Shown here: piece by piece, positions 1,835 through 29,478 of the stretch
How positions within the stretch are numbered: the stretch's first letter is position 1
Layout of the letters: each line of letters starts with the position of its first letter
Assembly (NCBI GenBank): GCA_014871385.1
Contig: CM026421.1
Coordinates: 25,104,752 to 25,168,751, forward strand
Length of the DNA stretch: 64,000 bases
Direction: 5' to 3'
Origin: Ceratodon purpureus
Taxonomy: Eukaryota; Streptophyta; Bryopsida; Pseudoditrichales; Ditrichaceae
Position numbers and translations under genes: made by a program
Notes under the pieces: generated by a model
Databases searched by the model: none
Seen by the model: only the letters and a program-made list of their open reading frames with translations
What the model was told of the DNA's origin: nothing

Positions 1835-2079
1835 CTGATCACTGCAGCCCTCTTTCTCTCCACCGAGCTTGTGTCGCGCTCCTTCAGTCGCCCTCCACCG
1901 AGCTGGGCCACGGAGCTGCGCACCTCCACCGACCAGCTCACCTCCACCAACTCGTGCCCTCCGCGACCTCTCCACCAAAGCGTGCCGTCCGCGCCTCTTC
2001 GTCGATCTTCCTCTGCCGTCGGGGGGCGCAAGCTGCTCTCCACAGCGTCGCCTTAGGAGCGAGCTCTCCGCAAGCTGCC
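1835..2079 (-). other. Probable 5'-untranslated exon of the 1-1529 gene, interrupted by the hAT insertion
   Basis: On the minus strand a consensus donor (CAG|GTAACC, exon end at 1835) faces the acceptor at 1532-1534, giving a 303-bp intron directly before the ATG at 1529. Going upstream, the exon reaches the hAT target duplication at 2072-2079 and resumes at 13757-13764, continuing to about 14000. A minus-strand TATA-like AAAATATAAAAG lies at about 14033-14045. Removing the 11.7-kb element and one duplication would restore a GC-rich leader of about 480 bp. Splice sites and TATA are seen in sequence; that they belong to one transcript is inference. Confidence 0.4.
2072..2079. repeat. Left 8-bp target-site duplication of the hAT element
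   Basis: AAGCTGCC immediately precedes the left terminus at 2080 and is repeated exactly at 13757-13764 immediately after the right terminus. An 8-bp duplication is the hallmark of hAT superfamily insertion. Confidence 0.93.
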
Positions 2080-2092
2080 CAGGGTTGTCTAT
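2080..2092 (+). repeat. Left terminal inverted repeat of the hAT element
   Basis: CAGGGTTGTCTAT. It matches the inverse of the right end (CAGGGTTGTTCAT) at 11 of 13 positions, and the first nine are identical. It fits the usual hAT terminus pattern CAGGG-TTG. Confidence 0.9.
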
Positions 2093-2120
2093 TCGGACGG
2101 ACATGGGCAAAATTTCCGGA

Positions 2121-2173
2121 CATAGACGGACGGACGGACGGACGGACCGGTCGGTCCCCGGACATAATCGGAC
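2121..2173 (+). repeat. Left subterminal GGAC repeats
   Basis: Tandem GACG units (2125-2148) run into a palindromic ACCGGT core, followed by CCCCGGACATAATCGGACA. The same GGACGGACGGACCGGTC core occurs near the right end at 13701-13734. Repeated subterminal motifs are typical transposase-binding regions in hAT elements; that role here is inferred. Confidence 0.6.
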
Positions 2174-2300
2174 ATTGAGGGGAGGAGGAAAATTACTAAG
2201 TTAGTTTTTTTTTTTTACAACTTACCTATAGGGGAAACATATTGATGACATGGACAACGAACGATGACGGGGAATTCCACATATGCAAAAGGGGTGCCAG

Positions 2301-2540
2301 CATGTGTAGGGGGCGAGAGCGGGTACAGGGGGGGCGCGAGCGGGTTCAGGGGGGCGCGAGCGGGTTCAGGGGGGCGCGAGCGGGTTCAGGGGGGGGGGGG
2401 GGGGGGGGCGCGAGCGGGTTGAAGGAGGGGCGCGAGCGGGTTCAAGGGGGGGCGCGAGCGGGTTCAGGGGGAATGGGCGCGAGCGGATTCAGGGGGGGCG
2501 CGAGCGGGTTCAGGAGGGGGCGCGAGCGGGTTTCTCGTGC
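2301..2540 (+). repeat. GC-rich tandem array 1 (G-rich on plus strand)
   Basis: About nine copies of a unit close to GGGGCGCGAGCGGGTTCA, with variable G runs (one about 19 G). It lies between the left terminus and the 3' end of the RING gene. The motif is shared with arrays at about 5476, 7118, 9300 (inverted) and 13366 (inverted). The open frames through it are repeat artefacts. Confidence 0.85.
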
Positions 2541-2788
2541 GGCCCATTTTGTAGATAGTAAATTTTTGACAATGCAAAAAAACCTAACATTTTCATTAGA
2601 ATAATATATTGGGGCTAAGCGCAATGACAAATGTGTAAATTCAGATACTCGTGAGCCAAAATACATGGACTTTGCAATGTTGTATACATTTATGAAAGTA
2701 AAAGCATTTCATTACCAATTCAAACCAAAACATTACAAAAACTGTAGTATATGAAAACTAGTCACTTAGTACTAAGTTGTAACTATTC

Positions 2789-3340
2789 CTATTCATCTGC
2801 ATCTACTCCCGCTGTGCCACTTGGTCCCGCTCCATCGTCCAGCGTCAAGCTGCGCCTGGCTCTCGTCCGTGTCCGCCGGAATGGGCCATCACCTTCACTG
2901 AGAGAACGCAAAATTTGCGAGTTCCTCAATTCTCTCAATGTACGCAATGTCTGTGGAGAGTGTTCCTCCAGAAGAAAGTCAACAGCCTCATGCTTGAAAA
3001 TTAACTTCCACTCCGAAAGAGACATTTGGACTGCATCTCGGGTGGTCAAAGACATGAATTGACCTTCGAGGTCTGTAACCAATTCCCCGTCCTTGTTCCA
3101 TATGAGGCCTTTTGGGTGATTACCAAGTTCGAACTTCCTATGCTTCGGATCCCAGTATCCATTCAAAGTCTGATAGAAGAAATTTCGTTTCCCTTGGTCC
3201 TCCTTCTTTGATCCAATTATCTTCTTTGCCACCCTCACAATCTGATTGGGGTCATCCTCCCACCCCAACTCGTCACTTACATTGCTCTTGAAGACCGAGT
3301 GAGTCTGGGCCCGCCAACTCCAAATCAAATCTTCCCCCAC
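2789..3340 (-). CDS. C-terminal part of RING protein, separated by a 1-nt frameshift
   Basis: This 183-codon open frame begins inside the last codons of the RING ORF (3325-5169), in another frame. If the G run at about 3337-3341 had six G instead of five, the RING ORF would read through its TGA and continue smoothly here: the residues just before the shift (EQYRNMWG) would lead into EDLIWSWRAQ. The segment is Trp-, Lys- and Glu-rich with a Ser/Arg-rich tail, and I recognise no domain. It has no good ATG of its own (the apparent start is GTG), which supports it being a detached tail. A real mutation, a sequencing error in a homopolymer, or slippage would all fit. Confidence 0.65.
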   Translation of the reverse strand: MGEDLIWSWRAQTHSVFKSNVSDELGWEDDPNQIVRVAKKIIGSKKEDQGKRNFFYQTLNGYWDPKHRKFELGNHPKGLIWNKDGELVTDLEGQFMSLTTRDAVQMSLSEWKLIFKHEAVDFLLEEHSPQTLRTLRELRNSQILRSLSEGDGPFRRTRTRARRSLTLDDGAGPSGTAGVDADE

Positions 3341-5169
3341 ATGTTGCGGTACTGTTCACCTGGTGTGTTTTCGGGATTTCTCTCATGGCTTGGTGGCATG
3401 TATGGAGTGAGTCCAAAAACCTCGTACAAGCGTTCATGGAACGGGGATTTGCACACCGGGCAAAATCTCCTTACCAAAAAAATGTTAATTAAACACATTG
3501 GATGGAACATGTGGGTACATGATCCAACTGCCCATCCACCCTCAGGACCAAATGTATTTAGACACACACTACATTCTTTTGAACCATCCATCACCCACGG
3601 TTGAGGATTTGGCCAAAGCTTCCTGCTATTAACTCCTTCCTTCATTTGAAGATCATGGCACGAAGTTGCGTTCTTCACATCGAAATTCAACTGGGCCCAA
3701 TCTATGAGTTCAGGATTCGATTCTTGCTTTGGCATGTTATCTGGATACATATCATCTGCGCTAATCCATGAAGTGAGGCCAAAATTCCTTCGTCTGTTGT
3801 GTTGCAAGTACGATTCGTCGATCTTCTTGAACTCTAATGCAATTTGGCGACCGCGATCAACGCTGAGAATGGTTGCCACTTTCCACTCGTAGTATGCTTT
3901 AGCAAACTTTGAAACAAGGAGCCGCAATTCATTATTGACTCTCATCAATGTCTCCACTTCTCCCGTTAGAGCATTGGGTGGAAATGACAAGGAATCTTGA
4001 CTTAATGGTCCATCGATGTCCACATAGGGTCGCGGGTATGGGGCTGGTGGAGGCAATATCACTCCAACTCGTCGTCGTTTTGCTGGAGTGGAAATATTCT
4101 CCAACACACCGGCCGTCGCAACATCAACCGTATTGTTGATGTAAGATTCATCCACCAACATTGGATCTTGAACTACAGGTATATCATTGGCTTGAGAAGA
4201 CTGAGGTCTTTCTCGTTCTTGCAATTGATTGCGCAAATCTGATATTACTGCATCTTTTGTTGCTGATTCCAATCGTAGTTTTCGGATGGTCTCTTGTAAC
4301 TCTGCAATGAAGCCATCCTTTTCTATAACCTGTAATTGCAACTCCCCGACCTCCTCGGTCTGGTTAGACTGGTCATTTCTAACTAGAACCGGCATGCCAA
4401 GAACCATCGTAGGTTCAGTTCCGACCACCTCCAAATTAGCTGCCGTATTTGGATCGTTTTCCACGAAGATGGTGTTCGCATCGTCGTGAGGTTCTATGAC
4501 GTCCGCTGGATGGTTCATTGGAGGCTCTACAGCCATATTTGCTGGTGCTGCAATTCTACGTGGCACTCTTTCTCCACGACGACCATCGGAATCAGAATCT
4601 GGTTCAGACTCTGTTGTATCAGGCTCCCGCACTTGTGTTTTTTCCTTCATTTTTTTCCCCAGGCCACCATCTGCGTATTTCCTTTGTTTGGGAATGTCAC
4701 GCTCTGTCGGCGCCCTAACACTCGGCGTGGATTTGATGGTGGACCAATCCACCACTTTGTGAAGCACCACCTCAGCATACACCATTCTGCAAATGAACAA
4801 TGGTACTTCATTGCGTCCGACACATCGTTGCTTGTATAGATGCTGGTAAACTTGTATAGAACGTTCAACAAACTCTGCATTCAAGCAATAATAGAGGTTA
4901 GCCTTGTCTGAGATCCTGTGTTTTCTGTGCCGATCATGTGGAAATATTTTTGTGATGTGGCACCACTCAATGAATTCCTCGCATGTGGAATATTTCCACG
5001 GTTCCGGCTCATCTTGCCAACCTCTAAATGCCAACTTCGTCGGGTTGTTCAGCACATGAAGCCACTTCTTCATCTTCTTACCACCACGCTTCCGTTCACG
5101 ATCTCTGATTTTTTTCTTTTCGGCCTTGGTGAGTGGCCTTTCCTCCGCCGGTTCTGGGTTTCCCTCCAT
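3325..5169 (-). CDS. RING-H2 protein (E3 ubiquitin ligase-like) carried by the hAT element
   Basis: This 614-residue frame starts at ATG 5169. The N-terminus is Lys/Arg-rich (residues 10-35), followed by a conserved-looking Trp/Cys/His segment (40-150). Next comes an acidic Ser/Asp stretch (about 180-200) and a predicted coiled coil (about 270-325). A RING-H2 finger lies at 533-573: C-x2-C-x14-C-x-H-x2-H-x2-C-x10-C-x2-C, containing CTHMFHPMC. RING-H2 fingers normally recruit E2 enzymes for ubiquitin transfer, so an E3 role is likely but untested; the rest is unrecognised. A minus-strand TATA box at 5504-5511 and GC-rich array 2 lie upstream. The frame ends at a TGA produced by an apparent 1-nt deletion, and a further 183 codons follow in another frame. 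It is transcribed divergently from the kinase-like gene. Confidence 0.8.
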   Translation of the reverse strand: MEGNPEPAEERPLTKAEKKKIRDRERKRGGKKMKKWLHVLNNPTKLAFRGWQDEPEPWKYSTCEEFIEWCHITKIFPHDRHRKHRISDKANLYYCLNAEFVERSIQVYQHLYKQRCVGRNEVPLFICRMVYAEVVLHKVVDWSTIKSTPSVRAPTERDIPKQRKYADGGLGKKMKEKTQVREPDTTESEPDSDSDGRRGERVPRRIAAPANMAVEPPMNHPADVIEPHDDANTIFVENDPNTAANLEVVGTEPTMVLGMPVLVRNDQSNQTEEVGELQLQVIEKDGFIAELQETIRKLRLESATKDAVISDLRNQLQERERPQSSQANDIPVVQDPMLVDESYINNTVDVATAGVLENISTPAKRRRVGVILPPPAPYPRPYVDIDGPLSQDSLSFPPNALTGEVETLMRVNNELRLLVSKFAKAYYEWKVATILSVDRGRQIALEFKKIDESYLQHNRRRNFGLTSWISADDMYPDNMPKQESNPELIDWAQLNFDVKNATSCHDLQMKEGVNSRKLWPNPQPWVMDGSKECSVCLNTFGPEGGWAVGSCTHMFHPMCLINIFLVRRFCPVCKSPFHERLYEVFGLTPYMPPSHERNPENTPGEQYRNMWGKI

Positions 5170-5288
5170 CGTGGTGTACTGGTAAAGTTTTGTGTGTTAA
5201 AAAACACACCAACTCCTCAAAACTTCCCCCAATTGATTTTACAATTTTCCTACGTGGTTGATTACGGTATTCTAACTATACTTTGTGG

Positions 5289-5458
5289 CCCACCCAAGTA
5301 TTCAGCAATAAGCCACCGTGAGGTAGTTTAGGGCCCGAATTCCCGGATGAGCGTACAAAATACGGTAGAACGAGGTACGTGGCGTTGTCAAAATGCTGTA
5401 GACCCCACCCAAGTACTCAGCAATAAGCCACCGCGAGGTAGTTCAAGGCCTGAGTGCC
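5289..5458. repeat. Two direct repeats of about 55 bp in the RING gene leader
   Basis: CCACCCAAGTA-TCAGCAATAAGCCACCG-GAGGTAGTT occurs at about 5290-5343 and again at about 5405-5458, period 115 bp, with a few mismatches. The repeats lie between the RING start codon and its TATA box, in the predicted 5'-untranslated region. Confidence 0.75.
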
Positions 5459-5475
5459 AAGGTGGAGCTTAAAAA

Positions 5476-5680
5476 GTGGGGGGGGGGGAGGGCGCCCCCT
5501 TCACTTATATAGTCGGGGGGGAGGGCGCGTGCGGGGTCAGGGGGGGGGGCGCGAGCGGCTGAGGGGGGGGGCGCGAGCGGGATCAAGGGGGGGCGGGCGC
5601 GGGTTTAGGGGGAGGTGCGCAAGCGGGTATGGGGGGGCGCGAGCGGGATCAAGGGGGGGCGCGAGAGGGTCCCCCCCTTA
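5476..5680 (+). repeat. GC-rich tandem array 2 (RING gene promoter side)
   Basis: Repeated GGGCGCGAGCGG-T-CAAGGGG units, G-rich on the plus strand. The RING gene's TATA box sits inside its left margin, so on the minus strand the array lies directly upstream of the presumed RING transcription start. Confidence 0.8.
5504..5511 (-). promoter_or_regulatory. TATA box of the RING gene
   Basis: The minus strand reads CCGACTATATAAGTGAAGGG. The core GACTATATAAG is identical to that of the kinase-like gene at 7341-7348, and both abut a CGCGAGCGGG array. Confidence 0.65.
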
Positions 5681-5689
5681 AAACAAGAT

Positions 5690-7060
5690 CTCATTTCCTT
5701 AGGAGTAGCATTGAAGAAGGTTGGAAGACAATAATAAAAACAAATGCAATGGATTTTTTCACCATTTCTCTCAAAAATAAAATTAAAAATTAAAAATTAA
5801 AAAGAGATATTAAAATAAGGAATACTGATTTGAATAATTTGGGGATGAGATATCAAATTATAGAAAAACAATCATGACTATAATAAGGGACTCGGGATAA
5901 AAAGGGATGAATAACATGGGATGAAAGAAGTTATCAAGATGAATAAATCTCATGGTGATTAGAAACTGAGTTATGCCATAACGGAATACTGATCTAATGC
6001 ACCATGAATAATATAATGTTGACTATAAAAAAATTAGTGTTTTAATATTAGAAGAGATGTGGAAATCTAAAAAAGATAAAACATTGGAAGAGACGAAGGG
6101 AATAAAATAAAATCAATATCATTGAGAGGAAGAGATAAAAGGAATAAAATAAAATCAATAGCATGGTGTGGAAGACAGTTGAATTAGAGTTCAAAACAAA
6201 AATCTATATATTTCATTGTACATACGGATCCTACAATGCTCTAACATATAATTAAAAATATAAAGAATCATAAAGAAGGGCTCGATGCAATTGGTTTGGC
6301 AGATAAACGGAATAAAATTAAATCAATAGCATGGAGTGGAAGAGATAAAGGGAATAAAATTAAAAGAATAGCATGGTGTGGAAGAGAGTTGGATTAGAGT
6401 TTAAAAAAATAAAAAATATAATGCATTGTACATACGGATCCTACAATGCTCTAACATATAATTAAAAAAAAAAAAAAAATCATAAAGAAGGGCTCGATGC
6501 AATTGGTTTGGCTGATAAACGGAATAAAATTAAATCAATAGCATGGAGTGGAAGAGATAAAGGGAATAAAATTAAAAGAATAGCATGGTGTCGAAATACG
6601 CAGGATTACAGTTTAAAAAAATAAAAAATATAATGCATTGTACATACGGATCCTACAATGCTCTAACATATAATTAAAAAAAAAAAGAATCATAAAGAAG
6701 GGCTCGATGCAATTGGTTTGGCTGATAAACGGAATAAAATTAAATCAATAGCATGGAGTGGAAGAGATAAAGGGAATAAAATTAAAAGAATAGCATGGTG
6801 TGGAAATACGCAGGATTAGAGTTTAAAAAAATAAAAAATATAATGCATTGTACATACGGATCCTACAATGCTCTAACATATTATAAAGAATCATAAAGAA
6901 GGGATCGATGCAATTAGTTTGGGAGATAGACGTTTTAAAATTAAATCAATAGCATGGAGTGGAAGAGAGCTGAATGAGAGGTTGTGCATGTATAAAATCC
7001 CAATAGTTTCTATTTTTTAATTTGTTTTATTTTATTTTTTTCTCTTAGAAAGTAGTGTAG
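5690..7060. repeat. AT-rich spacer with about four 210-bp tandem repeats
   Basis: This is the divergent intergenic region between the RING and kinase-like genes. A unit containing CATTGTACATACGGATCC recurs at 6214, 6424, 6636 and 6846, a spacing of 210-212 bp. Neighbouring parts of the unit (GGAATAAAATTAAATCAATAGCATGG-GTGGAAGAG) repeat with it. No gene is seen here. Confidence 0.85.
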
Positions 7061-7117
7061 AGATTTGACTATTTCCAGAAGAAAAATAGAAAATAAAAAA
7101 ATAAGTTGGAAAACAAA

Positions 7118-7340
7118 AGGTGGGGGGGGGGGGGCGGCGCGAGCGTGTCCGAGGGGGCGCGAACGGGTGAAGGGGGCGCGGACGGGTACGGGCGCGAGCG
7201 GGTACAGGGGCGCGAGCGGGTCGGGGGGCGCGAGCGGGTACGGGGGGGGGGGCGCGATCGGGTATAGGGGGGGCGCGAGCGGGTACAGGGGGGCGCGAGC
7301 GGGTTCAGGGGGGGGGGGCGCGAGCGGGTCCGTGGGGGAC
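7118..7340 (+). repeat. GC-rich tandem array 3 (kinase-like gene promoter side)
   Basis: About nine units of GGGGCGCGAGCGGGTAC/TTC in G-rich orientation end directly at the kinase-like gene's TATA box. Unit sequence closely matches array 1. Confidence 0.85.
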
Positions 7341-7348
7341 TATATAAG
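7341..7348 (+). promoter_or_regulatory. TATA box of the kinase-like gene
   Basis: GGGGGACTATATAAGGTGAGG follows array 3 without a gap and lies 164 bp before the ATG at 7505. A pyrimidine tract ending TTTTTTTTTTCAG just before the ATG suggests a 5'-untranslated intron. Confidence 0.7.
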
Positions 7349-7504
7349 GTGAGGAGAAGCTCTCGCCCCCCTCACTCCTTCCCACTGCGGCTCCTTGTCC
7401 TGACGTGTGAAAACACGCCTTGCTTGGAACTGCTTATGTGGGAAGTCTTCATTGGGGCGGGGGGGGGAAGTTGTTGATTTTTTTTTTCAGGGATTTACTT
7501 TGCG

Positions 7505-9076
7505 ATGTCTTCTAGACAAGGCTCCGGCAAGCGGCCTATGTATGAGGACTTGGATGCTCCAGATGCGGTGGACCCTATGAGTTGCGTAAGACCTCATGGT
7601 TCTACTGGTTCTACTCCTTCATCTAGCTCGAAGGGTAAAAAGAAGAAGAGTATTCCAGCGCACAAGAAGGATGACGGTTATCCACCATTGGAGTATACGC
7701 ATTTCATCAGGAAGGTGACCGTTGAGTACTACAAGGCCCGTACCATACGAATGTTGAAGGCAATGTACCTTGATCACGGAGAGAATGGTATCTACAACCT
7801 CCAACGTGATTTGGAAAGGGAATTTTGGAGCGCATTGGAAGGATCAGAGTTGTACATGGATTGCAAGACGAAGTATTTTCACAGCCCGAAGTAGTTGACA
7901 CAACAAGTGAGTAGTGCTACGACAAATGTCATTCATGTGTTTGAATCACATGTCAAGAAACCACAAGGCGAAGAATGGAGCAACCAAGACAAAGTGTTTA
8001 TTCAAAAACTGACAACGGTTCAGGAGGCATGTCAGAGATGTTCTAAGGGGAAAACAAAGATTATGCCTTGGAATGAGCAAGCATTGAACTCAGCATTGGA
8101 AGCACACATGTATGGTGCATTGATATGGATTCCGGTTACGGCCAAGGTTGTGCCATTATCTGGCTTCAATGCCGAGGGGGGGTATGGCAAAGTGCGAAAA
8201 GTGCGAATAGCCAATATGAAGAAAATTCCAATTCACATAGAATTTGCGGGAAAACTTTCCAAGGCTAAAACCGAAGTGAAGAAGCGAGAGGAACGGGCGA
8301 TTGAGGCCACGGTTAACCCCGTAGAGCATCCGGGTGTGATAAAATTTTGGACCATTCACTCGAAGACCATGGAAGCTTATACCCTGTGGTGGAATGGAGA
8401 TTGCCTCCGCAACTTCCTCAAATTAAATGAGAAGGCAACCGAGGCAACAGATTACAAAGAAATTTTGAAGTCGAGGGATATGCCCATGGAAGAGTGCCAA
8501 AGAATTGTTGCCTATCGAAAGAACCGGGGAATGTTGGCGTGGAGTCTCATCTACGTTATGGACATAGTACATAAGGCTGAAATCCTCCACAACGACTTAA
8601 CGCCATCCAACATTCTACTTCACTTTCCACCTCATGACAAGGATAAAGTATATATTGGTGTATGCGATTGGGGTGTGGCAAGCAGAGTCATTGAGAAGAA
8701 GGCCTCCCCTTATGGTGTGATGGACCCCGATGAACTTGTACAAGTAAAGGAGAGGAGGGTAGGAGTTGCACCGGAGTTGTTCTTTTTATATGGCAAAAAA
8801 GATGATGAGGAACGGAATTTGGAGCGCATGAAGAGGATGCATCCATGTACGACGCTATCTGATGCATTTTCGGTAGGCCATTTGGCAAAGAAGATATGGA
8901 GAGAAGAAGATTGCCCATAACTCTTTAAGGATTCAATCTCAAAGATTGTATTCTCATCAAAGTTGGATGGCTTGCTTAACGAAGATCCTACAAAGAGGCT
9001 TTCACTTGCAAAAGTTGTGAATGATTTGATGAGCCCCCCTTACAACTTCCAAGCTCCCAATGGTTGTTTTAGATAG
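7505..9076 (+). pseudogene. Protein-kinase-like gene in the hAT element, with two in-frame stops
   Basis: One frame runs from ATG 7505 to TAG 9074-9076 (524 codons including the final stop), broken by TAG at 7892-7894 and TAA at 8918-8920. Coding character continues past both stops. The N-terminal 130 residues are Ser/Lys-rich, then unrecognised. The kinase-like domain (codons about 215-510) has a glycine loop AEGGYGKV (223-230), FAGK in the place of the ATP-binding lysine motif, HNDLTPSN for HRDLKPEN (from 362), DWG for DFG (388-390) and APE (422-424). After the second stop, DPTKRLSLAKVV matches the end of a C-lobe. The catalytic Asp and Asn are kept, but the loop Lys is Thr. Each stop is one transition from a Gln codon. 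Its role in the element is unknown. Confidence 0.8.
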
Positions 9077-9299
9077 ACATTGTACTTCCATAGTGATTTA
9101 CGTTTGGAACATTTTGATTGCCTATGTGGCCTTGTTTGCACATTTCTAATATTTTAATAAATCGTTTTTTCAGCGTATACATGCCTTGGTGGAACATGAA
9201 ATGGTATTGTTGGTTTTGTAATGGAATGAAAAATTGTTTTTAAAAAAAAAATTAAAAAACTGTATGGCCCATTCACCGGGACTGCCCCTCGTACAAGGG

Positions 9300-9344
9300 T
9301 GCCTCCCCCCCTCTGGAAGCTCGCGCCCCCCTTTGCAGTAGGTT

Positions 9345-9376
<32 letters not shown>

Positions 9377-9595
9377 GAGAAGCTCGCGCCCCCCCCCCCT
9401 TGGAGAAGCTCGCGCTCCCCCCTGGAGAAGCTCGCGCCCCCCCTGGAGAAGCTCGCGCCCCCCCCTGGAGAAGCTCGCGCCCCCCCCCCCTCTGGAGAAG
9501 CTCGCGCCCCCCCCCCCTCTGGAGAAGCTCGCGCCCCCCTGCAGACGCTCGCGCCCCCCCCGCCTGGAGAAGCTCGCGCCCCCCCTCACGAGTAT
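9300..9595 (-). repeat. GC-rich tandem array 4 (transposase promoter side, inverted)
   Basis: About twelve units of GGAGAAGCTCGCGCCCCCC, i.e. the inverse strand of the GGGGCGCGAGC motif, with one C run of about 26. It lies between the kinase-like gene's end and the transposase TATA box. Confidence 0.85.
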
Positions 9596-9598
9596 AAA
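9593..9598 (+). promoter_or_regulatory. TATA box of the hAT transposase gene
   Basis: TATAAA in CACGAGTATAAATGCC lies immediately after array 4. A branch-point-like ATACTAAC (9745-9752) and acceptor TTGCAG (AG 9759-9760) follow, suggesting a leader intron ending 36 bp before the ATG at 9797. Confidence 0.6.
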
Positions 9599-9796
9599 TG
9601 CCACCAACTTAGCCCAAGGCCAATATCATTTGAAATCATGGCCTCTAGTCCCGGAACTCCTTGTGGGCTCCTTGCTTGAGACTATGTGCATCACATTGGC
9701 CTGTGGTTGATGTCTACACATACCATTTTTTTCTCACATGTGTCATACTAACACTTGCAGACAGGAGATCATTGTACTTTTTCAGAGACACGGAGA

Positions 9797-12700
9797 ATGG
9801 CAGGTCAACAGCGTCAGTCGACGGCTGAGTGGGCTCCGTGGTGGACGTTCATTGATAAGGACCATGTTAAATGTGTGTGGTGCAATTTCACCTTTCGTTA
9901 TAAACGACAAAGAGCTTTCAAGCACTATGGATGGGGTGAAGGTTCAAGCAAGAGTCATTGTACCAAGGCCCCTGCCGCCGTATTTAGGCGCTTTGCCAAT
10001 TGTGGTAATGTAATACCAAAAAGAATGACACATGCGGAGATATACGGCACTGATGGTGGTGATGGCGAGGCACACTTGGCACACTTGGCACCATGTTCTA
10101 GCAAGTCTATGCTTGCTGAGCAATCTACGGAAGTGCCTCAGAGAACGGAGGAGGTCCAAGAGGAGAGGATTTCCCAAGTTCAACCGTCTCAGTCAACTCC
10201 GCCTATAAGCAGAGGCGATTCATGTACACCAAGATCTATGCGGCAACAAAGTTTTACCGAGGCCTATCAGATTGGGATGCGCAATGAATTGGATGAGAAA
10301 TGGGCGTCCTTTTTTTACGAAGCGAATGTGCCTTTCAATGTGGTTAGACATCCATCTTTTATCGCTGCTGTGGAGGCAACATCGAAAGCGGGTTTTGTCT
10401 ACCGTCCACCAGCATACAACGCAATGCGAACCAAGCACATCCAGCCAACAAAGCAGCTTCTCAAGATGAAAATAGAGGAGAAAACGAAGCAGTGTATTAG
10501 CTTGTACGGGGCAACTATTTGCTCGGATGGATGGGACAACGTTGTTCATCGGCCGTTGATGAATGTCATGCTTGTGTGTCCAGCAAGAGATATTTTCCTG
10601 GGTTCCATTGATACAACGGGGTACAAGAAATCAAAGGCATACATAGCTGGGAAATTGAAAGAGTACATCAAAGAAGTTGGACCGCAGAATGTGGTACAGA
10701 TTTGCTCCGACAATGCTAGTGCAATGTTGGGAGCCATGGACCAGGTGGTAGAAGCTTATCCACACATTTACAAGCAAGGTTGTGCAGCTCACATCATGGA
10801 CCTCTTACTAGAAGATTGGGGGAAGGAAGCAACCTTCAAAGAGCTGATTGCCTTGGCAAAACGCATACCAAATTTTATACGTCGCCGTCATGTCACCATG
10901 GCTTTGTTTCGCCAATTCAGCCCGAAGTTGTCTCTGTTGTTACCAGCGGAGACAAGATTTGGATGCCAGTACTTGATGATTGTTCGATTGCTTCAACTCA
11001 GGGAGGCACTAATCCAGGTGGTAGCCAATCCAAAATGGGACGAATATGTGGGTACTTTATTCAATCGGTCAAACGGGTATCGAGCTCACACCTTAGCATG
11101 TCAAGTACGGAGTACCATTCTCGATGAGACATTTTGGTTACGTTGTGAGGATCTTGTGCATGTTATGAAGCCGGCTGTTGTGACCTTGAAGACATTTGAT
11201 GGACAAACACCGGCAATGGGGAGGGCATGGTTGGCCATGAATAATTTGAAGAAGCATGTGTTCCGTCTACGGGGTGATCCTTTTTTCCTAGACCCCGCTA
11301 TAGCAGGGCGCTTTGAGAAACATTTTACGAAGAGATGGAAGATGATGTTGACAGATCTCCATTACGCAGGCGCCATTTTGAATCCCTACATTTTCCCGGA
11401 GAGCCACGAGCTATTGACTAACAGTGCTGCGAAGCGTGCACTCCTGCAAGTGCTAATTCATTTGAGTGAGTCCCTTAAACTGGACCACGATACTGTGTTG
11501 TTCGAGCTAACACAGTTTGAGGAACGCACCGGTCCATTCAGTCCTTTGGAGGCCCCAAACATTCGACAGACTAAGATGCTACCTCATCAATGGTGGCAGC
11601 GGGTTGGGGGCGATGCGTTACCGTTGATAGCAAAGCGCATCCTTTCGTTAACATGCTCGGCATCATCATGTGAGCGAAATTGGAGCATGTATTCCTTTGT
11701 TCACACTAAGGTTCGCAACCGATTGGCCGTGAAGAAGGCAGAGGACTTGGTGTACATTTACACGAACAGTAAGCTCCTTCGAGAACGACGTGGAGCGGAT
11801 CCTGTTCTTTGGTACGAGAACCAACCGTTCTCCGAAGACTCGGATGAAGAAGTGCCAGCCATGTACGATGAAGACGTATGTGATGATGATGGAGATGAAG
11901 GATTCCACGACGGACTTGAAGTTAATGAAGGCGATGGTGATGACGGTGGAGTTCATTACACTCCTGCTACTATGGATGATGAGTATCCAGAGTTACCCGT
12001 GGACAATGGTGATGGTGACATGCCACGCACTGAACCCGTTAACCAGCCGAATGGAGTTTTTGATTGGGCAGGATTTGATGAAGAGGCAGCTACTTCGCCT
12101 CACCACGTTGTCAATGAAATACAAACTAGAGGCGAGGTCGCATACGATCGGGCAGACGATGATATTGACGATGAATTTGAAGTCGAAATGACTGAGCATC
12201 AAAGCGACGATGGTGGCAATAATGATGACATTTACCCCGTTCGTAGCGTTTCGAACAATGACAATGAAGAAGGGGGTAACAACATGGGAGAGCAAATTCC
12301 AATTCCAGAAGACGTTGAGGGAGGAGAAGAAGTTGAACAACTCCAGGGCACTCTGCCAGTAAATGTTGAGGAAACAATCAGGTCTGGAGGTTTGGATGAA
12401 AGCCCTCCAAGAAATGAACAATCAGAGACAGTCAGAAATGGACAAGAAGATGAAATTCCTATTGGCCGATTGTTTCAAACACCCCTACCCCAGAGTACAC
12501 CTTCAATCGGAGCAGTACTTGCAGGGTTGGGTCGACCTCCCCCACCTCGTTCAAGCACTTCTACTGGGCATGGTTCAATAACTCCAACACCGAATACAAG
12601 CATTCCACTCACTTCTTCTGGACAAAGTCTACCAGCTGGACCTTCTACGACGCGTCATGGAGTGATACGGTCACGGAAAGGTCCAACAAACGTTCGCCCT

Positions 12701-13081
12701 TTTTTTTCAGGATATACTGTTGGAACTACCCCGTCTTTACCTGTGGCTGTGGGTAAACGTAGATTACCCGTAATGAATGTGGACGGAATCACCGATAAGA
12801 CCAAAAGACGGAAGATCAAAAGAATTGTGACCATAGTGGTGGATGGTACAATTGACCACGAATTGCGCAACATTCATTCCACGGTGGAGGAGTATGTGCC
12901 TAATCAGGGGGGAGATGGAGATGACGAAGGGTCGAAATCCTCAGAAGGATATTACTCATCAGAAGATAGCCGTGAAGAAGCACCTGATGATGAAGACATT
13001 GTTGTAAGAGTACCATTGGGTATGCCCGGTACTCGAAGGAATCCGGAGCGGCGCACCGCCAAAAAAAACAAAAAAAAGTGA
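9797..13081 (+). CDS. hAT superfamily transposase with long acidic C-terminal tail
   Basis: An intact 1094-residue frame starts at ATG 9797; upstream codons are open but have no ATG and lie next to a likely splice acceptor. A BED-like zinc finger lies at residues 12-60 (CVWC at 26-29, then H43 and HC at 54-55). The DUF659-type RNase-H core has the first Asp in CSDGWD and the second in ICSDNAS. The hAT dimerisation region at about 610-665 contains SSCERNWSMYSFVHTKVRNRL, where the conserved Glu falls in CERNWS. About 430 further residues form an Asp/Glu-rich, low-complexity tail ending in a basic KKNKKK stretch; most hAT transposases lack such a tail. It should excise and insert elements bearing these termini. 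The reading frame appears undamaged, unlike its two neighbours in the element. Confidence 0.93.
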   Translation: MAGQQRQSTAEWAPWWTFIDKDHVKCVWCNFTFRYKRQRAFKHYGWGEGSSKSHCTKAPAAVFRRFANCGNVIPKRMTHAEIYGTDGGDGEAHLAHLAPCSSKSMLAEQSTEVPQRTEEVQEERISQVQPSQSTPPISRGDSCTPRSMRQQSFTEAYQIGMRNELDEKWASFFYEANVPFNVVRHPSFIAAVEATSKAGFVYRPPAYNAMRTKHIQPTKQLLKMKIEEKTKQCISLYGATICSDGWDNVVHRPLMNVMLVCPARDIFLGSIDTTGYKKSKAYIAGKLKEYIKEVGPQNVVQICSDNASAMLGAMDQVVEAYPHIYKQGCAAHIMDLLLEDWGKEATFKELIALAKRIPNFIRRRHVTMALFRQFSPKLSLLLPAETRFGCQYLMIVRLLQLREALIQVVANPKWDEYVGTLFNRSNGYRAHTLACQVRSTILDETFWLRCEDLVHVMKPAVVTLKTFDGQTPAMGRAWLAMNNLKKHVFRLRGDPFFLDPAIAGRFEKHFTKRWKMMLTDLHYAGAILNPYIFPESHELLTNSAAKRALLQVLIHLSESLKLDHDTVLFELTQFEERTGPFSPLEAPNIRQTKMLPHQWWQRVGGDALPLIAKRILSLTCSASSCERNWSMYSFVHTKVRNRLAVKKAEDLVYIYTNSKLLRERRGADPVLWYENQPFSEDSDEEVPAMYDEDVCDDDGDEGFHDGLEVNEGDGDDGGVHYTPATMDDEYPELPVDNGDGDMPRTEPVNQPNGVFDWAGFDEEAATSPHHVVNEIQTRGEVAYDRADDDIDDEFEVEMTEHQSDDGGNNDDIYPVRSVSNNDNEEGGNNMGEQIPIPEDVEGGEEVEQLQGTLPVNVEETIRSGGLDESPPRNEQSETVRNGQEDEIPIGRLFQTPLPQSTPSIGAVLAGLGRPPPPRSSTSTGHGSITPTPNTSIPLTSSGQSLPAGPSTTRHGVIRSRKGPTNVRPFFSGYTVGTTPSLPVAVGKRRLPVMNVDGITDKTKRRKIKRIVTIVVDGTIDHELRNIHSTVEEYVPNQGGDGDDEGSKSSEGYYSSEDSREEAPDDEDIVVRVPLGMPGTRRNPERRTAKKNKKK

Positions 13082-13365
13082 TACATCTATTAGCATATTA
13101 CATATAGAAGTTATATAGAGAAAGTATAATATATATGTCTCCAAAATAATTTTAAAAAAACACAAAAAAATATAATATATATATATATCTAAATTTTATA
13201 CGTAGATACTTATATGTTAACTTTAGTCAATGTCCATAAAACATTAGCTAAGGCTATTGAATGTAATTTTGTTTCGACATGAATTGAAACTTCTCTCATT
13301 TATGTCACTATGAAAAATTCAGTCATGTCTTAATTTCCTTCAATGGTTGATTCTTGTTCCCCGCT
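13082..13365. other. AT-rich 3' flank of the transposase gene
   Basis: Contains a (TA)n-type tract (about 13125-13190) and no open gene. It presumably holds the transposase 3'-untranslated region. Confidence 0.5.
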
Positions 13366-13545
13366 CGCGCCCCCCTGCAATCGCTGGCGCTCGCGCCCCC
13401 CCCCCCCCCCCCCCCCCCCCTCGCAGGCGCCCGCGCCCCTCCCAGTCGCTCGCGCCCCCTCGCTCGCGCCCCCCTTCCCAAGACGCTCGCGCCCCCCCTC
13501 TCAGCCGCTCGCGCCCCCCTCACTCAAGGCGTTGGCGCCCTTCCT
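13366..13545 (-). repeat. GC-rich tandem array 5 (right subterminal, inverted)
   Basis: Repeated CGCTCGCGCCCCC units with a C run of about 22. This is the mirror-image counterpart of array 1 at the other end of the element. Confidence 0.85.
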
Positions 13546-13697
13546 CTTAGCCACGTCATCCCCCGAGTCAACAATATATGTGGAATATTTGGTGACATGT
13601 CAGACGCGTGGCATCCTAGGTGGCCAAGGTAACTCCCATTTCACCATTTGGGTGGTCAACCGTAAGTCCTGGTCAAACGGACCTCCCCTGACCCCTA

Positions 13698-13738
13698 ACA
13701 GACGGACGAGCGGACCGGACGGACGGACCGGTCCTTTT
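13698..13738 (+). repeat. Right subterminal GGAC repeats
   Basis: GACGGACGAGCGGACC followed by GGACGGACGGACCGGTCC lies just inside the right terminus and shares its core with 2121-2173. The ACCGGT centre is palindromic, so each end carries it in both orientations. Confidence 0.6.
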
Positions 13739-13743
13739 GTCCC

Positions 13744-13756
13744 ATGAACAACCCTG
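13744..13756 (-). repeat. Right terminal inverted repeat of the hAT element
   Basis: The plus strand reads ATGAACAACCCTG; its inverse CAGGGTTGTTCAT pairs with 2080-2092. Confidence 0.9.
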
Positions 13757-13764
13757 AAGCTGCC
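13757..13764. repeat. Right 8-bp target-site duplication
   Basis: AAGCTGCC, identical to 2072-2079. Confidence 0.93.
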
Positions 13765-13965
13765 GACGGAGCTGCCTGGCGTCCTCCCTCTTGCAGCTTC
13801 CGTCGCGTCCTCGCCTCCTCGCCTCGCGTTGCCGAGGGCCTCCCTCCTGCAGCTACTCTGCTGCGAGCTCCATCTCCGGCGTCGGGGAGGTGGCGTGCTG
13901 GCAACAATGGAGCAAGAGGGGGGAAGCGAGGCACTCCTCCCCCTCTCCATACCACGCGGGTATGG

Positions 13966-13997
13966 ATGCCGCGGTCATGGGTGAATGACCGCGGCAT
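13966..13997. repeat. Perfect 13-bp inverted repeat (hairpin)
   Basis: ATGCCGCGGTCAT, a 6-nt spacer, then ATGACCGCGGCAT. It is GC-rich and lies just downstream (minus strand) of the TATA-like sequence at about 14033-14045, so it could sit at the start of the leader of the 1-1529 gene. Confidence 0.8.
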
Positions 13998-14049
13998 TAC
14001 TGTACCCCCTTCAAATTGTCACGTCACCTTTCTTTTATATTTTAAAAAT

Positions 14050-16225: not shown

Positions 16226-19200
16226 CTAGTCGCTGTCAGCATGTGCAATGTCGACATCGGGGGCAATATCCTCCCCGGCACCCCTGTTGCCAGCATCCGG
16301 GATGTCCTCATCGTTGTTAGCAGCGTCCCTCTGTTCATCTTCCTCGCCCCCACTGCCAACCATGTCCCCGTTGGCATTCCATTCCTGCTCTTCTTCCATC
16401 ATCCAATCTCCTTCGTCCTCCACGACTTCTTCAAGAACATATGCTCGTCCAACACGCCTCCTCCTTGACCTCCACTCCTGGCAGGCAATGGCAGCGTTTG
16501 ATTGTTGCCACCGCTCACGTCTCCTGGCCGCCTCAATGGCCCGTGCTCCGTCATCCGGGTCAGGTACAGCTCCCTGGATTTCCATTTTTTTCCTATATCG
16601 ATGTTGTATGTTTCGGTACCAATGCTAGATCTGCTGGAGAATCGCACTAGTACGGGCTTTCCCACCACCATGGGCTGTATGTGCCTGATGTGCTGCCTTC
16701 GCTTGGTGGTGTGATTTCTCCATGCCTTGGCAGCTCCACACTCCAAGGCTCCTATAGTGTTCCACAAACCAAGTGGAGTGCCGTACAATTACGTGCTGTC
16801 AACAAGAAGAAGGAAGTTAATAGCCGGATACTTAGGTCAAGTAGACGGTTCACTGAAGAAACACCAAAAGCAACAACAGACAGAGCCGGGAGCATACCAT
16901 ATAATGGGTAACATGCTCTTCTCCGAAGGCCTTTAAGTATGCCTTTCCCCACTTGTGTATCTTCTGCTTGAATTGCATCCGTTGCTCTGCTGTCAACACC
17001 AGTCCTGTCAAATATGGTACGACATCTTCAAAGGCTTGCCACATCTGGTACTTTGCAATGCGGTCAGCCCCACTCCCGGCATTATTATTCTCAGCTTGAC
17101 ATATATCCTTCCAGGCCTTATCATTTCCAGACCAAACGCTTGGCCTAAAAAGCCTGCTGGCAACGGTACCACTCAAAGAGGGTTTTTGCGGCACGTTTCC
17201 GGTGTTGCCACTGAGCTTGGGGTCCCTCTTAATCTCCACGTTTCCACCATGAGCCCCAATCGCGGACAACGACTTCTCCATCTGTTCAATTGCAGTAGCC
17301 CTCAGTCTCTGATTCTGTATGTTCCAAACATACATGATATGCATGTGCACTATCTTCTCCGTCAATCGAACCAAGGCATGCAATGTACAAATGTGTAGTC
17401 TGGACAAAGGAATTGGCAGGATAGGCCTCCACCTAGTAGATGTTGCCATGTCACAAGGTTCCTCAGGTACGCTGCTGGAAAATAGCCCCCCCACCCAGTT
17501 TGCTTTACCACGGCTCTTGATGGCAGCGTTTGCCTGGCTTGCTGTCCCCACAGTGGGCTTTATCCTCTTCTGGTCGCAATATATGCAGTTCATTGCACAC
17601 GACGGCCCTGACTGGAGCCCGTACATACACTTGATCGTCTTCATGTCCGCAGCAAGATGCCACTCCACCTGGAATTCTCCAACTTCGGGGACTGTGAGTT
17701 TCTCGCCACTTGACTGCGCTGCTATCACAGCCGGGATGTTCGACTTTCCAAATATCCACCAGAGAACATCGTAGGACTCCTTCTCGACCTGAAACGTGGC
17801 AACTGGCCAAATCTCCTGCTCTGATTGTACTGAGAAGTACCTCTCGTGGTCCACCTGAATGTTAGTGTCCAGAGCCCGATTCATCAACGTGATACTAACA
17901 CGTTCAAATTTCTTCCCGTTAATAATCTCTGCCTCATCCAGCTTGAGGACAAATATTAACGGAGCCCCTTCCAACTCTGCAAGAATATCCTCACGTGAGA
18001 ATGTTTCTGTAATGCAATCGAATTAGCTTCCATTGTTAAACACATACAATGCAGTTGCTGGCACCAAACGGACATTCACCATTGCTGTCAACAAGAGAAG
18101 AAGAGGATGCATACCTGACTTCGTGATGCCATAAAAGATCACCATGCTCTGCTGGACCACCTCAAGGTCCGTGAATAGCGAGTTTTTTTCATCTAAGACC
18201 ACCTCCTTTCGCTACTCCTCAGATTTCTTGGTTTTCTTTGACACTGCTGGCAGCTCCATCCTTCCCTCAGCGTGGTAGTACTGGCCAATGAATTGTGGCA
18301 AGTTCGCATTTAGCTCCTGCCGAAGCCTTTTGACGTGGTAGGGACTAGGTAGTATGTTGGATTTGGCATCCTTGCCCAAATCCCGAACTGGAGCCTTCAC
18401 GGCTTGGTAAATTGCACCATAACCTTTCAAGGACACCCCTGCTTGGTCGCAGGCAGCAAGAATATTACTCGGCCGTACCCTTTTTCCAATTGCCTTCATG
18501 ACGTTAGTAGCAATCTTTCTCTTAACATGCTCCATAGATGGCTGAGTTGCGAGGGTGAGACCTTCATGCCTAGTCAGTATCTTTGCTAACGCTACAGCAG
18601 TTACTGTTTGGGAGGCTTTATCCCCATGAAGTCGCTGCTTCTCATGGTTGACCCGGTTGTTGTCGTTGACAGCATCCACGAGATGAGGTTGCAAATGCGT
18701 CTTAACGAGCTTCACTCTGCGTTTTGCCCACCCTGAACCATGATTCAATTCATGAATCCCCCTGAGCGGTCGAGCCCTACGTCGCATCCCCATAGGCGTG
18801 TCCTTCAAAGGGCTAGGCCCCTCCGGTAGGCGCTCACTTGCTTGCTGCCAGCGACGCACCTCGGTCTCCAAGCCCTGCACCGTCACCCTATGATTTCTCT
18901 CCATGCTGCTCATCTCGGTTCGAATAGTCTCCAATTGAACCCGCAATTGCATGCATGTATCCTCAATGTCCCTGTTATGGTCGAGCCTCTCTCGGCTGCC
19001 AGCAAGGTCCTCTCTCACCTTGCCGAGTTCTTCTTCTAAATGTCGGCACTCCATCTCCATCTCACTCCTTGTAGGTCCTCCTCCATCAACGAGACCCAAT
19101 CTGCGTGCATATCCATACAGACCTTGCTCTCCATGACATATGAATTCCAGGCAATCTCGAAGAGTTCTGAATGGAGGTAGCCTCCCTGTTCCTGGATCAA

Positions 19201-19384
19201 CCGGGTAAATGCTGCCATCGACCCACAAGTCAATGTTTGTATCCCCGGCTGCCCTCCGTCCTGGAAATGTTGATGGGCAGGGTTGCTCGGATCTCAATAA
19301 ACCTCTCCTCACAAGTGGTGCGTAGCGTGCATCAATCGAAATTCCAACACGGTAGCTTGAAGGCTCCACCCCTGGTGTTGCCAT
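16226..19384 (-). pseudogene. Three-exon transposase-like gene of an uncharacterised family, two in-frame TAG codons
   Basis: The exons are 19384-18115, 17976-16898 and 16795-16226. Donors are CAG|GTATGC and ATG|GTATGC; acceptors are TTGCAG and GACAG. Phases agree, giving 972 codons. TAG interrupts at 18212-18214 (codon 391) and 16625-16627 (codon 840); coding continues in frame after each. N-terminal residues about 105-190 are a coiled coil. A middle region contains AADMK (from 532) and CIYC (554-557). Exon 3 opens with HVIVRHSTWFVEHY, then SLGVWSCQGMEKSHHQA, and the protein ends in an acidic tail. From memory, this order (G-D-K-F-like motif, C-x2-C, then H-V-L-V and Q-G-x-E-K) resembles uncharacterised ORFs common in animal genomes that may be RNase-H-like transposases. 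That link is inference. The termini of any element were not found. Confidence 0.6.
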
Positions 19385-27609: not shown

Positions 27610-27632
27610 TCAGTTGCTCCATTCGACCATTG
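27583..27632. repeat. 25-bp tandem duplication spanning the AP2 gene stop codon
   Basis: CATCAGTTGCTCCATTCGAC + CATTG occurs twice in tandem (27583-27607 and 27608-27632). The gene's TGA lies at the edge of the inner copy. Either copy alone would still stop the frame, so the protein end is probably unaffected. Confidence 0.85.
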
Positions 27633-29478
27633 CATCGTCCAAGCTGAACAGCTGCGGCGCCCACGATCCATCAACACCGTCCTCATCCTGAAAACTCTGG
27701 GGACTGTCTATCTGGAACAAGCTGAGCCCTGGCGATGACACATACTGAAAACACTTGGCACTGTCCGTCTGGAACAAGTTGGGCCCTGGCGATGAAACAT
27801 ACTGAAAACCCTTGGCACTATCTATCTGGAACAAGTTGGGCCCTGGCGATGGCACAGAAAAGAAGTCCTTGCTTAGGTACTGGAATTGATCGGCACAAGC
27901 TGGTTGCGCCTCAAACCCTGAGGATTCCACCAAGTTCCGGGCCCAGGTGGTGGAGTAGAGGTCTGAACCATTCCATTGTTCGCTATGATGCTGTGATCTC
28001 GCAGAGACAAGCGGATCATCCTCCAGACCTTGCCTAGGTTGATTACAAAATTCGACTGATTCGACTAATTTTGTGATGGCATCCATATCACTGAATGGCT
28101 CTAAGGTGCTGCAGCTCTGTTGCCTATCACTAGGGAACGAAATGTTGGTGATGGCGCCCGTTAAGTATTCCCGGTGTGGTTGCGGGGGTTGGGGTTCACC
28201 ATAGGCGCCTGTGCCGTCACCACTCTCATAGCCAATAAGCGACCATGACACCCACGGCGACGACTGAGAGTCCGTGCATGGGGGAAGTTCTACACTTGGG
28301 ACGACAGTGTTACTAGCTCGTGACGGTAACGCAGGAGCCGTCAACGAAGCTACGGCGGGTGTAGAAGAGGGCGTGGACGGGGGTATGGAAGCCCTAGATA
28401 CGAGCATCTGTTCGTGCAGCTCCGCAAGCATATGTCCGTGCTGCTTCACAAGCGTCAACTTCTCGTCCACACTTAGCCCATCTGGTTTGGGTTGCGTTGA
28501 CAGAATCTGTAGAGAGTCAGCAAAGTTTACCTTGTCTGTAATCCCGTAGTGGTAAAAGGCTGCATCAATGGCGCGAGCTGCTGCTTCTGCGGACATGAAG
28601 TCGCCGAAGGAAACCTTGTTCTTTTTAGGGTAATTCGGCACCTTTGTCTCTGCTATAAAACGCTTGCGGTCGGGGCGATAGCGGACCCCATTGAATCGCT
28701 CGGCTTCCGATTTGCAAAACTCCTCCTGCAATAACTGTTTTTTGCTAACCGGAGACACCTGTGCACACGGACCGTAGAGTCGTCTTTTCCTAAGGCCCGG
28801 CTGAGAAAAGTTCTTGGTGTACATATCCAGAACGTCCACTTGCACCTGCCAGAGGACTGCGCATTGAACTCCTGGGTGCGCCCAGATGAGTTCTGGGCTT
28901 TCATCGTCAAGAAACGATTCCCACCATTCACGAGGGACTTTTTGAACTTCGGATTCCACAAGTAATTTATCCAAAGAAGTGGCACCCACATGGTAGCCAG
29001 GGTACAAACACGCGTTACCGTAGACCTCGAGAGTGCTCAATCTAAATGACTTGCGAGCGAAGGCGGAAGCGGGCTGTCCTCTCGCACGCGCAGCAAATGT
29101 TGGGGACTCGGCGCTTACAGCGTATGGTTGTGCGTTGAGACGGCTATATAATTCGTCAGTACTAGACCCCGACGTCGACGGAGCATCGCCCATCAGCATG
29201 AGATGCTTAAACACATCCGGGTCGCTCTCTTCAACATCTTGGTCCGCTTGCCAATCGAGTGCCTCTTGCGTCACCGAGAAGGAAGGTGTGCGCACCGACA
29301 CATCCCCGATTGTTCCCTCCTGCTGTGATAGCACAATTGCGCAGGCGTACACCTTGTGGACCTGATAACGATTCCTCGCAAACGTTGCCGTAGAAAGGAC
29401 ATGCTCCAGCTGAGGAATCCATCGCCCCACCAGATCACTGGTGTTAATAGCAAGAGCCATGAAGCACGATGAAAACAA
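27610..29478 (-). CDS. Single-domain AP2/ERF-type transcription factor, 622 residues
   Basis: An intronless frame runs from ATG 29478 (alternative ATG at 29460) to TGA 27610. A divergent AP2 domain spans about residues 262-322. FNGVRYRPDRKRFIAET corresponds to the YRG element, VSFGDFMSAEAAARAIDAAF to the RAYD helix, and KVNFAD to the domain end. Preceding it, residues 150-255 form a Trp-rich segment (REWWESFL, LIWAHPG, VLWQVQVD) that I do not recognise. The rest is Ser/Pro/Gln-rich, as in activation regions. Near the C-terminus (540-596) a 19-residue unit, SPGPNLFQIDSAKGFQYVS-like, is repeated three times. AP2 domains bind GCC/DRE-like DNA through a three-stranded sheet, so a nuclear regulator is likely. 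Whether the divergent domain still binds DNA is uncertain. A 25-bp tandem duplication overlaps the stop codon. Confidence 0.82.
   Translation of the reverse strand: MFSSCFMALAINTSDLVGRWIPQLEHVLSTATFARNRYQVHKVYACAIVLSQQEGTIGDVSVRTPSFSVTQEALDWQADQDVEESDPDVFKHLMLMGDAPSTSGSSTDELYSRLNAQPYAVSAESPTFAARARGQPASAFARKSFRLSTLEVYGNACLYPGYHVGATSLDKLLVESEVQKVPREWWESFLDDESPELIWAHPGVQCAVLWQVQVDVLDMYTKNFSQPGLRKRRLYGPCAQVSPVSKKQLLQEEFCKSEAERFNGVRYRPDRKRFIAETKVPNYPKKNKVSFGDFMSAEAAARAIDAAFYHYGITDKVNFADSLQILSTQPKPDGLSVDEKLTLVKQHGHMLAELHEQMLVSRASIPPSTPSSTPAVASLTAPALPSRASNTVVPSVELPPCTDSQSSPWVSWSLIGYESGDGTGAYGEPQPPQPHREYLTGAITNISFPSDRQQSCSTLEPFSDMDAITKLVESVEFCNQPRQGLEDDPLVSARSQHHSEQWNGSDLYSTTWARNLVESSGFEAQPACADQFQYLSKDFFSVPSPGPNLFQIDSAKGFQYVSSPGPNLFQTDSAKCFQYVSSPGLSLFQIDSPQSFQDEDGVDGSWAPQLFSLDDAMVEWSN
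27691..27861 (-). repeat. Three 57-bp in-frame repeats in the AP2-type gene
   Basis: The three units encode variants of FQYVSSPGPNLFQIDSAKG. They are nearly identical in DNA, implying recent expansion. Confidence 0.85.

Follow-up and report, generated by a model that had tools for sequence, protein, structure and literature searches.

Inside a hAT transposon of the moss Ceratodon purpureus lie genes for a protein kinase and a RING-H2 protein. Do they belong to that transposon and, if so, what could they do for it? The element occupies positions 2080–13756 (11,677 bp) of a 64,000-nucleotide stretch (NCBI GenBank assembly GCA_014871385.1, contig CM026421.1, positions 25,104,752 to 25,168,751 of the forward strand), which we call the window. 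Our data show an old, high-copy hAT lineage with three genes and long-term selection on all three of their products. The feature in the window is very probably one copy of this lineage, in whose standard full form a transposase of the hAT type would be accompanied by a RING-H2 protein and a Ser/Thr-type kinase.

The element in the window and its copies

The ends of the element are marked by an 8-bp target-site duplication (TSD, unstranded), AAGCTGCC, at 2072–2079 and 13757–13764, and by a terminal inverted repeat (TIR), CAGGGTTGT, at 2080–2088 on the plus strand, where CGGAC repeats follow, and at 13748–13756 on the minus strand. The initial annotation, made from the letters of this stretch, had set the boundaries by perfect 8-bp duplications and terminal repeats; both are present, but the duplications lie outside 2080–13756. 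Within the window, AAGCTGCC occurs only twice, each time adjoining an end of the element, and CAGGGTTGT, counted in both orientations, occurs only at the two ends. In a shuffle control the TSD pair alone was matched in 51 of 100 shuffles and the TIR pair alone in 6 of 100. We rejected chance as the source of these repeats and regard the ends as real, because TSD and TIR abut exactly and the same ends recur elsewhere with different 8-bp duplications. Across 11 copies of this first lineage (the window copy and 10 fetched from elsewhere in the genome), the TSD is perfect in eight and matches at 7/8 positions in one; one of the remaining two has mismatching flanks, and in the other an N run prevents a judgement.

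The 8-bp TSD typical of the hAT superfamily is found in both lineages described below and in a subfamily copy on contig C2, and short TIRs of the CAGGG type, which we take to be the hAT type, are present as CAGGGTTGT in the first lineage and as CATGGTTGTCATAATG in the second. The window transposase matches the Pfam domains DUF659 (PF04937, 9.8e-33) and Dimer_Tnp_hAT (PF05699, 1.6e-6), both above cut-off, and its residues 139–411 match the Hermes transposase (4.5e-5). Duplications, terminal repeats, Pfam domains and the Hermes match bear out the earlier call of an 11.7-kb hAT transposon at these positions. In an alignment of 21 transposases, D244 is invariant and D305 and E626 are kept in at least 90%; going only by motif position, these may be the catalytic D, D and E. 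Near-identical copies at different target sites suggest that the element has probably transposed by cut and paste through its hAT enzyme.

Three genes lie between the ends. The RING-H2 protein gene (2789–5169, minus strand) and the protein-kinase gene (7505–9079, plus strand) are each a single exon, coding for 792–793 and 526 amino acids, respectively, in copies where the frame is open; the transposase open reading frame (ORF; 9797–13081, plus strand), likewise single-exon, codes for 1094 amino acids, including both hAT-type domains and a long acidic C-terminal tail. The RING product matches zf-RING_2 (1.4e-6; 28.9 bits against a cut-off of 27.3) and the kinase product matches Pkinase (5.1e-10; 39.6 bits against 31.7). 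Of the three frames, that of the transposase alone is open in the window copy. A 1-nt deletion near 3338 breaks the RING gene, and premature stops interrupt the kinase gene at codons 130, 472 and 524. Thus the transposase is intact as had been claimed, and the RING-H2 and kinase-like genes placed inside the element are both there, but both are broken in this copy.

Our genome scans cover the best-scored candidates for each query in the 362-Mb assembly. The left-end probe returned, as the best 40 of 759 candidate places, sites that each match at least 295 of the 301 bases at 98–100% identity; besides the window itself there were 39 such sites, of which 10 were fetched. Nine of these ten are colinear with the window element across all three genes, which answers in the affirmative the proposed check of whether other copies hold both extra genes; one of the nine (on C13) misses part of the RING–kinase spacer, and in the tenth (C2:118933) an assembly gap, seen as a stretch of N, interrupts the sequence before the transposase. 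The fetched copies therefore usually carry the whole trio, which is not a one-off capture. Open frames were counted in the 11 copies for RING in 8, for the kinase in 6, for the transposase in 7 and for all three in 4, among them the C6 copy, whose transposase frame is altered near its end and runs beyond the usual stop. The copy at C2:1604138 has open RING and kinase frames together with the first 200 transposase codons, at which point the fetched stretch ended. The C2 subfamily copy (11,828 bp, TSD 8/8) carries all three genes at 94–96% identity to the queries, the RING frame lacking its usual start and the transposase containing one stop.

The scans with the individual genes agree on abundance and linkage. 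All of the best 57 of 1701 RING candidates span the full query length, and 47 of them are free of stops; the same is true of 77 of the best 81 of 1367 kinase candidates and, within the matched first two thirds of the protein, of all of the best 38 of 1615 transposase candidates. A listed kinase copy lies within 8 kb of 33 of the 57 listed RING copies in divergent orientation, where 0.05 would be expected, and one other arrangement was seen. Likewise, for 30 of the 38 listed transposase copies the kinase list includes a copy that lies 0.73–0.94 kb upstream in the same orientation, against an expectation of 0.02. A missing partner may only be one that falls outside the best candidates, because the kinase at C2:1609965 does have a RING partner although none is among the matches listed.

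Some further observations concern the setting of these copies. Two copies 35 kb apart (C2:1639381 and C2:1604138) share a flank, TTTCCGAC, which is the right flank of the one and the left flank of the other, as expected after recombination between two elements. Close inverted pairs of RING copies with equal or near-equal scores occur at C3:6554703/6561697, C2:23504103/23517401, C11:11139919/11143597, C2:2916202/2923459 and C6:32952354/32962597, and look as if they came from inverted duplication or from assembly. From the gene name of a transposase homologue, KC19_VG232100, and general knowledge, we take contig C6 to be probably the V sex chromosome of C. purpureus.

A second hAT lineage and selection on the three proteins

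A second hAT lineage of this genome also carries the trio between its ends, with the genes in a different order. A genome search with P0020, a RING homologue 37% identical to the window RING ORF, gave, as the best 55 of 1630, places that are 39–41% identical to the query; 40 of these lack stops. A tally of such places by contig, which took in 51 of the 55, does not enter our counts. Two of these elements were fetched, and both have perfect TSDs. The C8 element (16,024 bp) has a 16-bp TIR, CATGGTTGTCATAATG, and the TSD ACTGAGAA (8/8), and carries RING, transposase (frame broken) and kinase genes on one strand. The C10 element (16,719 bp, TSD GACACAAG, 8/8) has all three ORFs open, at 850 amino acids for RING, 1148 for the transposase and 522 for the kinase. 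The gene order is RING(−) kinase(+) transposase(+) in lineage 1 and RING(+) transposase(+) kinase(+) in lineage 2, and the RING–transposase interval of lineage 2 holds a tandem repeat with a unit of roughly 140 bp. The initial annotation had named, as outcomes that would speak against its reading, copies of the family that lack the two genes or genes captured only at this locus; the finding of the trio in a second, diverged lineage is the opposite.

Beside the lineage-2 copy on C8, positions 13342437–13351453 may represent a separate 9-kb element, with an 8-bp TIR match, CAGGGTGT, and a TSD of 7/8. It contains an ORF of 587 amino acids whose match to RING is weak (31% to the RING region) and another of 400 amino acids that lacks a Pfam match; tblastn at 1e-3 found no kinase or transposase homologue in it.

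Between the two lineages, amino acid identity is 43.0% for RING, 50.0% for the kinase and 46.9% for the transposase, and agreement at fourfold sites is 21.9%, 27.0% and 31.0%, respectively, which amounts to saturation. As unconstrained proteins would hardly align once fourfold sites are saturated, this comparison shows constraint over the long term: the proteins of both lineages are held, as judged from their sequences, by purifying selection since the divergence. The transposase row of the comparison with the C2 subfamily was left out, because a dropped stop had shifted its codon frame. Selection between copies, a check that the initial annotation had suggested, was also examined within the window family. 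The pooled ratio of nonsynonymous to synonymous polymorphism (pN/pS), counted over copies with open frames only, which are not independent of one another, is 0.41 for RING (8 copies), 0.57 for the kinase (6) and 0.32 for the transposase (7). The ratio is thus below 1 for all three, and the signal is clear for the transposase (nonsynonymous share 0.523 against a context-matched expectation of 0.725, reached in 0 of 1000 randomisations) and for RING (0.603 against 0.727, 10 of 1000); for the kinase it is weak.

The proteins themselves also show signs of constraint. Homologues from the protein search number 28 for RING, 106 for the kinase and 37 for the transposase, and most of them have no informative name. 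Of the 106 kinase homologues, 40 were aligned: all have Lys250, Glu267, Asp364 and Asn369, and at least 90% retain Asp388, with the motif variants HND and DWG; on the basis of kinase motifs, we take these residues to be the catalytic Lys, the Glu, the HxD Asp, the Asn and the DxG Asp. Because these positions are so well kept, the kinase is probably active. The C3H2C3 zinc ligands of the RING-H2 domain are kept in most homologues that reach this region and altered in a few. Since other invariant columns of the RING family (V130, E133, VDW at 140–142 and S194-D195-G196) lie elsewhere in the protein, more than the RING domain is constrained. A PDB sequence search gave generic kinase, RING and coiled-coil matches, and no relative of either protein came from viral contigs scanned with peptide patterns (one for RING, two for the kinase).

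We built trees from chosen homologues (17 RING, 30 kinase and 29 transposase) and the two lineages, with taxa unmatched between trees. The relatives of lineage 1 branch in a similar nested order in all three, which is only suggestive, as is the similar size of the homologue clusters P0010, P0035 and P0139 (47, 47 and 43 members). P0010 has no close match in this genome among the matches listed (52–54%).

Several points weigh against reading these data as an old lineage in which selection keeps all three genes. The RING, kinase and transposase trees disagree on where lineage 2 belongs, and because its position varies and the taxa are unmatched, the trees do not separate co-descent from an exchange of cargo between lineages. 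The nonsynonymous share of the kinase (0.682 against 0.768 expected) was reached in 87 of 1000 randomisations and is not significant. The broken RING and kinase genes beside an open transposase in the window copy would also be expected if copies that are mobilised in trans could do without the cargo. Furthermore, the linkage of the three genes is known from C. purpureus alone, the copy and linkage counts rest on best-scored candidates, and the RING protein matches no known domain outside the RING and a coiled-coil-like stretch.

Shared promoters and possible roles of the extra proteins

Each of the three genes has a promoter in which a TATA-like box lies between a GC-rich array and the start, and arrays also lie inside both ends of the element; both lineages share this design, with the arrays of lineage 2 likewise near the ends and upstream of genes. 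The arrays are built around GCGCGAG, and the window element contains 36 occurrences of this core, counted together with its complement, against a single one in the remaining 52.3 kb. From left to right, the subterminal array of GGGGGCGCGAGCGGGTTCAGG units (2309–2532), the array upstream of the RING gene (5517–5669) and that upstream of the kinase gene (7132–7338) are on the plus strand; the array upstream of the transposase gene (9364–9585) and the right subterminal array (13388–13552) point the opposite way, on the minus strand. All five are present in eight of nine copies examined (the window copy and eight with a right end located through an exact motif match), and the C9 copy has four. The initial annotation had given the two other genes TATA boxes of their own, and we see TATA-like boxes before all three: TATATAA at 5505–5511 (minus) for RING, TATATAA at 7341–7347 (plus) for the kinase and TATAAAT at 9593–9599 (plus) for the transposase, the same layout being found at all three in the C6 copy.

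The leaders that follow the TATA-like boxes are similar in the two lineages, with alignment scores of 56 for the kinase (best of 200 shuffles, 32) and 47 for the transposase (33); the RING alignment reaches 35 (best shuffle 30), but falls within the array itself. In the promoter comparison, six of nine pairs lie above all 200 shuffles, including unlike genes, although narrowly: RING–transposase 42 against 41, kinase–RING 27 against 25 and kinase–transposase 31 against 27. Because unlike pairs pass too, the shuffle test alone is lenient.

Between the RING and kinase genes lies a minisatellite of 210 bp (6099–6968, unstranded), with 4.2 units in the window copy. Its unit number varies strongly between copies, and the longest run is in the C3:6557734 copy, a 14.4-kb element. 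Within 1900–14000 no Rfam family reached the gathering score.

That two diverged branches keep all three genes suggests that the extra proteins help the element to survive or move. The hAT transposase would move the element, an element protein (the transposase or the RING protein) may bind the GC arrays and so tie transcription to transposition, and the RING protein and kinase would act in trans for the element. The initial annotation had speculated that the pair could modify the transposase or host silencing factors. As their most likely action we tentatively favour a modification of host silencing factors, which would thereby be removed or disabled. We consider it possible, if somewhat unlikely, that this takes the form of a two-enzyme counter-defence module, in which the kinase marks a host silencing factor, the RING ligase ubiquitylates it, and the GC arrays recruit the module to promoters and ends, allowing escape from silencing; such a module would have been kept through the change in gene order and be common to the distinct lineages.

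Next in likelihood, and already doubtful, the two proteins might instead regulate the element's own transposase, perhaps by way of the long acidic tail. The kinase would then phosphorylate the transposase or the RING protein, and RING would ubiquitylate the transposase and so set its dose, a scheme that we rate as less probable than action on the host. The promoter design common to all three genes fits it, as do the lengths of the transposases: 19 of the 21 aligned have 913–1206 amino acids and most of these a long acidic tail, which is absent from P0170 (644 amino acids) and P0171 (710 amino acids), named relatives among plant and charophyte transposases. The sequence of the tail, however, is poorly conserved.

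It is very unlikely that host RING and kinase genes were picked up recently by one hAT and amplified as passengers, as in Pack-type elements. The genes are single-exon, and hAT elements are established as able to carry captured fragments; against this, the same trio is present in a second lineage at 43–50% protein identity with fourfold sites saturated, and many copies have open RING and kinase frames. Furthermore, no plant host gene is named among the 28 RING and 106 kinase homologues, most of whose names are absent or read only ‘hypothetical protein’ or ‘serine/threonine protein kinase’. With cargo ORFs open in many copies and in two lineages, the element does not resemble a Pack-type hAT, which holds captured fragments and no conserved cargo. 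Least probable of all is that RING and kinase belong to another mobile element inserted into the hAT, as the minisatellite and GC arrays that separate the genes might suggest, since the outer TSDs bracket all three genes at different target sites in both lineages (no systematic search was made for inner termini with a TSD).

The lineages described here are old hAT elements that keep two genes whose predicted products act on proteins and not on DNA. Their many near-identical copies, some open in all three genes, and the two diverged lineages form a built-in comparison, and the way in which a transposon counters or tunes host control becomes directly testable in mosses, which include haploid, transformable laboratory species.

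Known elements and other features of the window

To our knowledge, plant hAT elements typically carry the transposase only. The VANDAL/MuDR elements have a Mutator-type transposase and a 9-bp TSD, and their anti-silencing protein binds short motifs of which the element contains many repeats. En/Spm, of the CACTA superfamily with a 3-bp TSD, encodes TnpA, whose binding sites are repeated motifs in the subterminal regions and overlap the promoter. We know of no RING or kinase in either system. Lanisha DNA transposons have reportedly been found in C. purpureus as well.

In the sections of PMC12730594 drawn on here, plant VANDAL/MuDR elements are described as carrying an anti-silencing protein, and the moss element is like them in being a plant DNA transposon with a non-transposase gene (PMC12730594). 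Unlike the Lanisha clade, with its EnSpm-like transposase and TSDs of 2–5 bp, the moss element has hAT domains and an 8-bp TSD, which sets it outside that clade (PMC12730594). In the same sections, fungal hAT7 elements carry a TET/JBP dioxygenase gene common to several families (PMC12730594). As in these, a further enzyme gene stands beside a hAT transposase, and in hAT7 it is discussed together with fungal transposon silencing; unlike hAT7, which has a 7-bp TSD, one DNA-acting enzyme and fungal hosts, the moss element has an 8-bp TSD and a RING protein plus kinase (PMC12730594). No TET/JBP domain was found by Pfam in the five window translations scanned, and together with the 8-bp TSD this places the element outside the TET-bearing hAT7 group. 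Fungal IS3EU elements are similar in having a kinase gene beside the transposase of a DNA transposon in a conserved gene layout, but differ in transposase superfamily, in their 6-bp TSD and in their alpha-kinase, the moss kinase being of the Pkinase type (PMC12730594). The words RING and ubiquitin are absent from the main text of that paper.

As far as these sections go, fungal hAT7 with its TET/JBP dioxygenase and fungal IS3EU with its alpha-kinase are the closest printed precedents that we found, and neither combines RING and kinase in a hAT. The claim that no hAT lineage with this cargo had been described is in keeping with our literature search, which found none in open-licence PubMed Central papers, a scope that stands apart from the repeat library of the Ceratodon genome paper.

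Elsewhere in the window, four further ORFs of 338–622 amino acids are present, at 16850–17974, 18212–19384 and 27610–29478 on the minus strand and at 61382–62398 on the plus strand.

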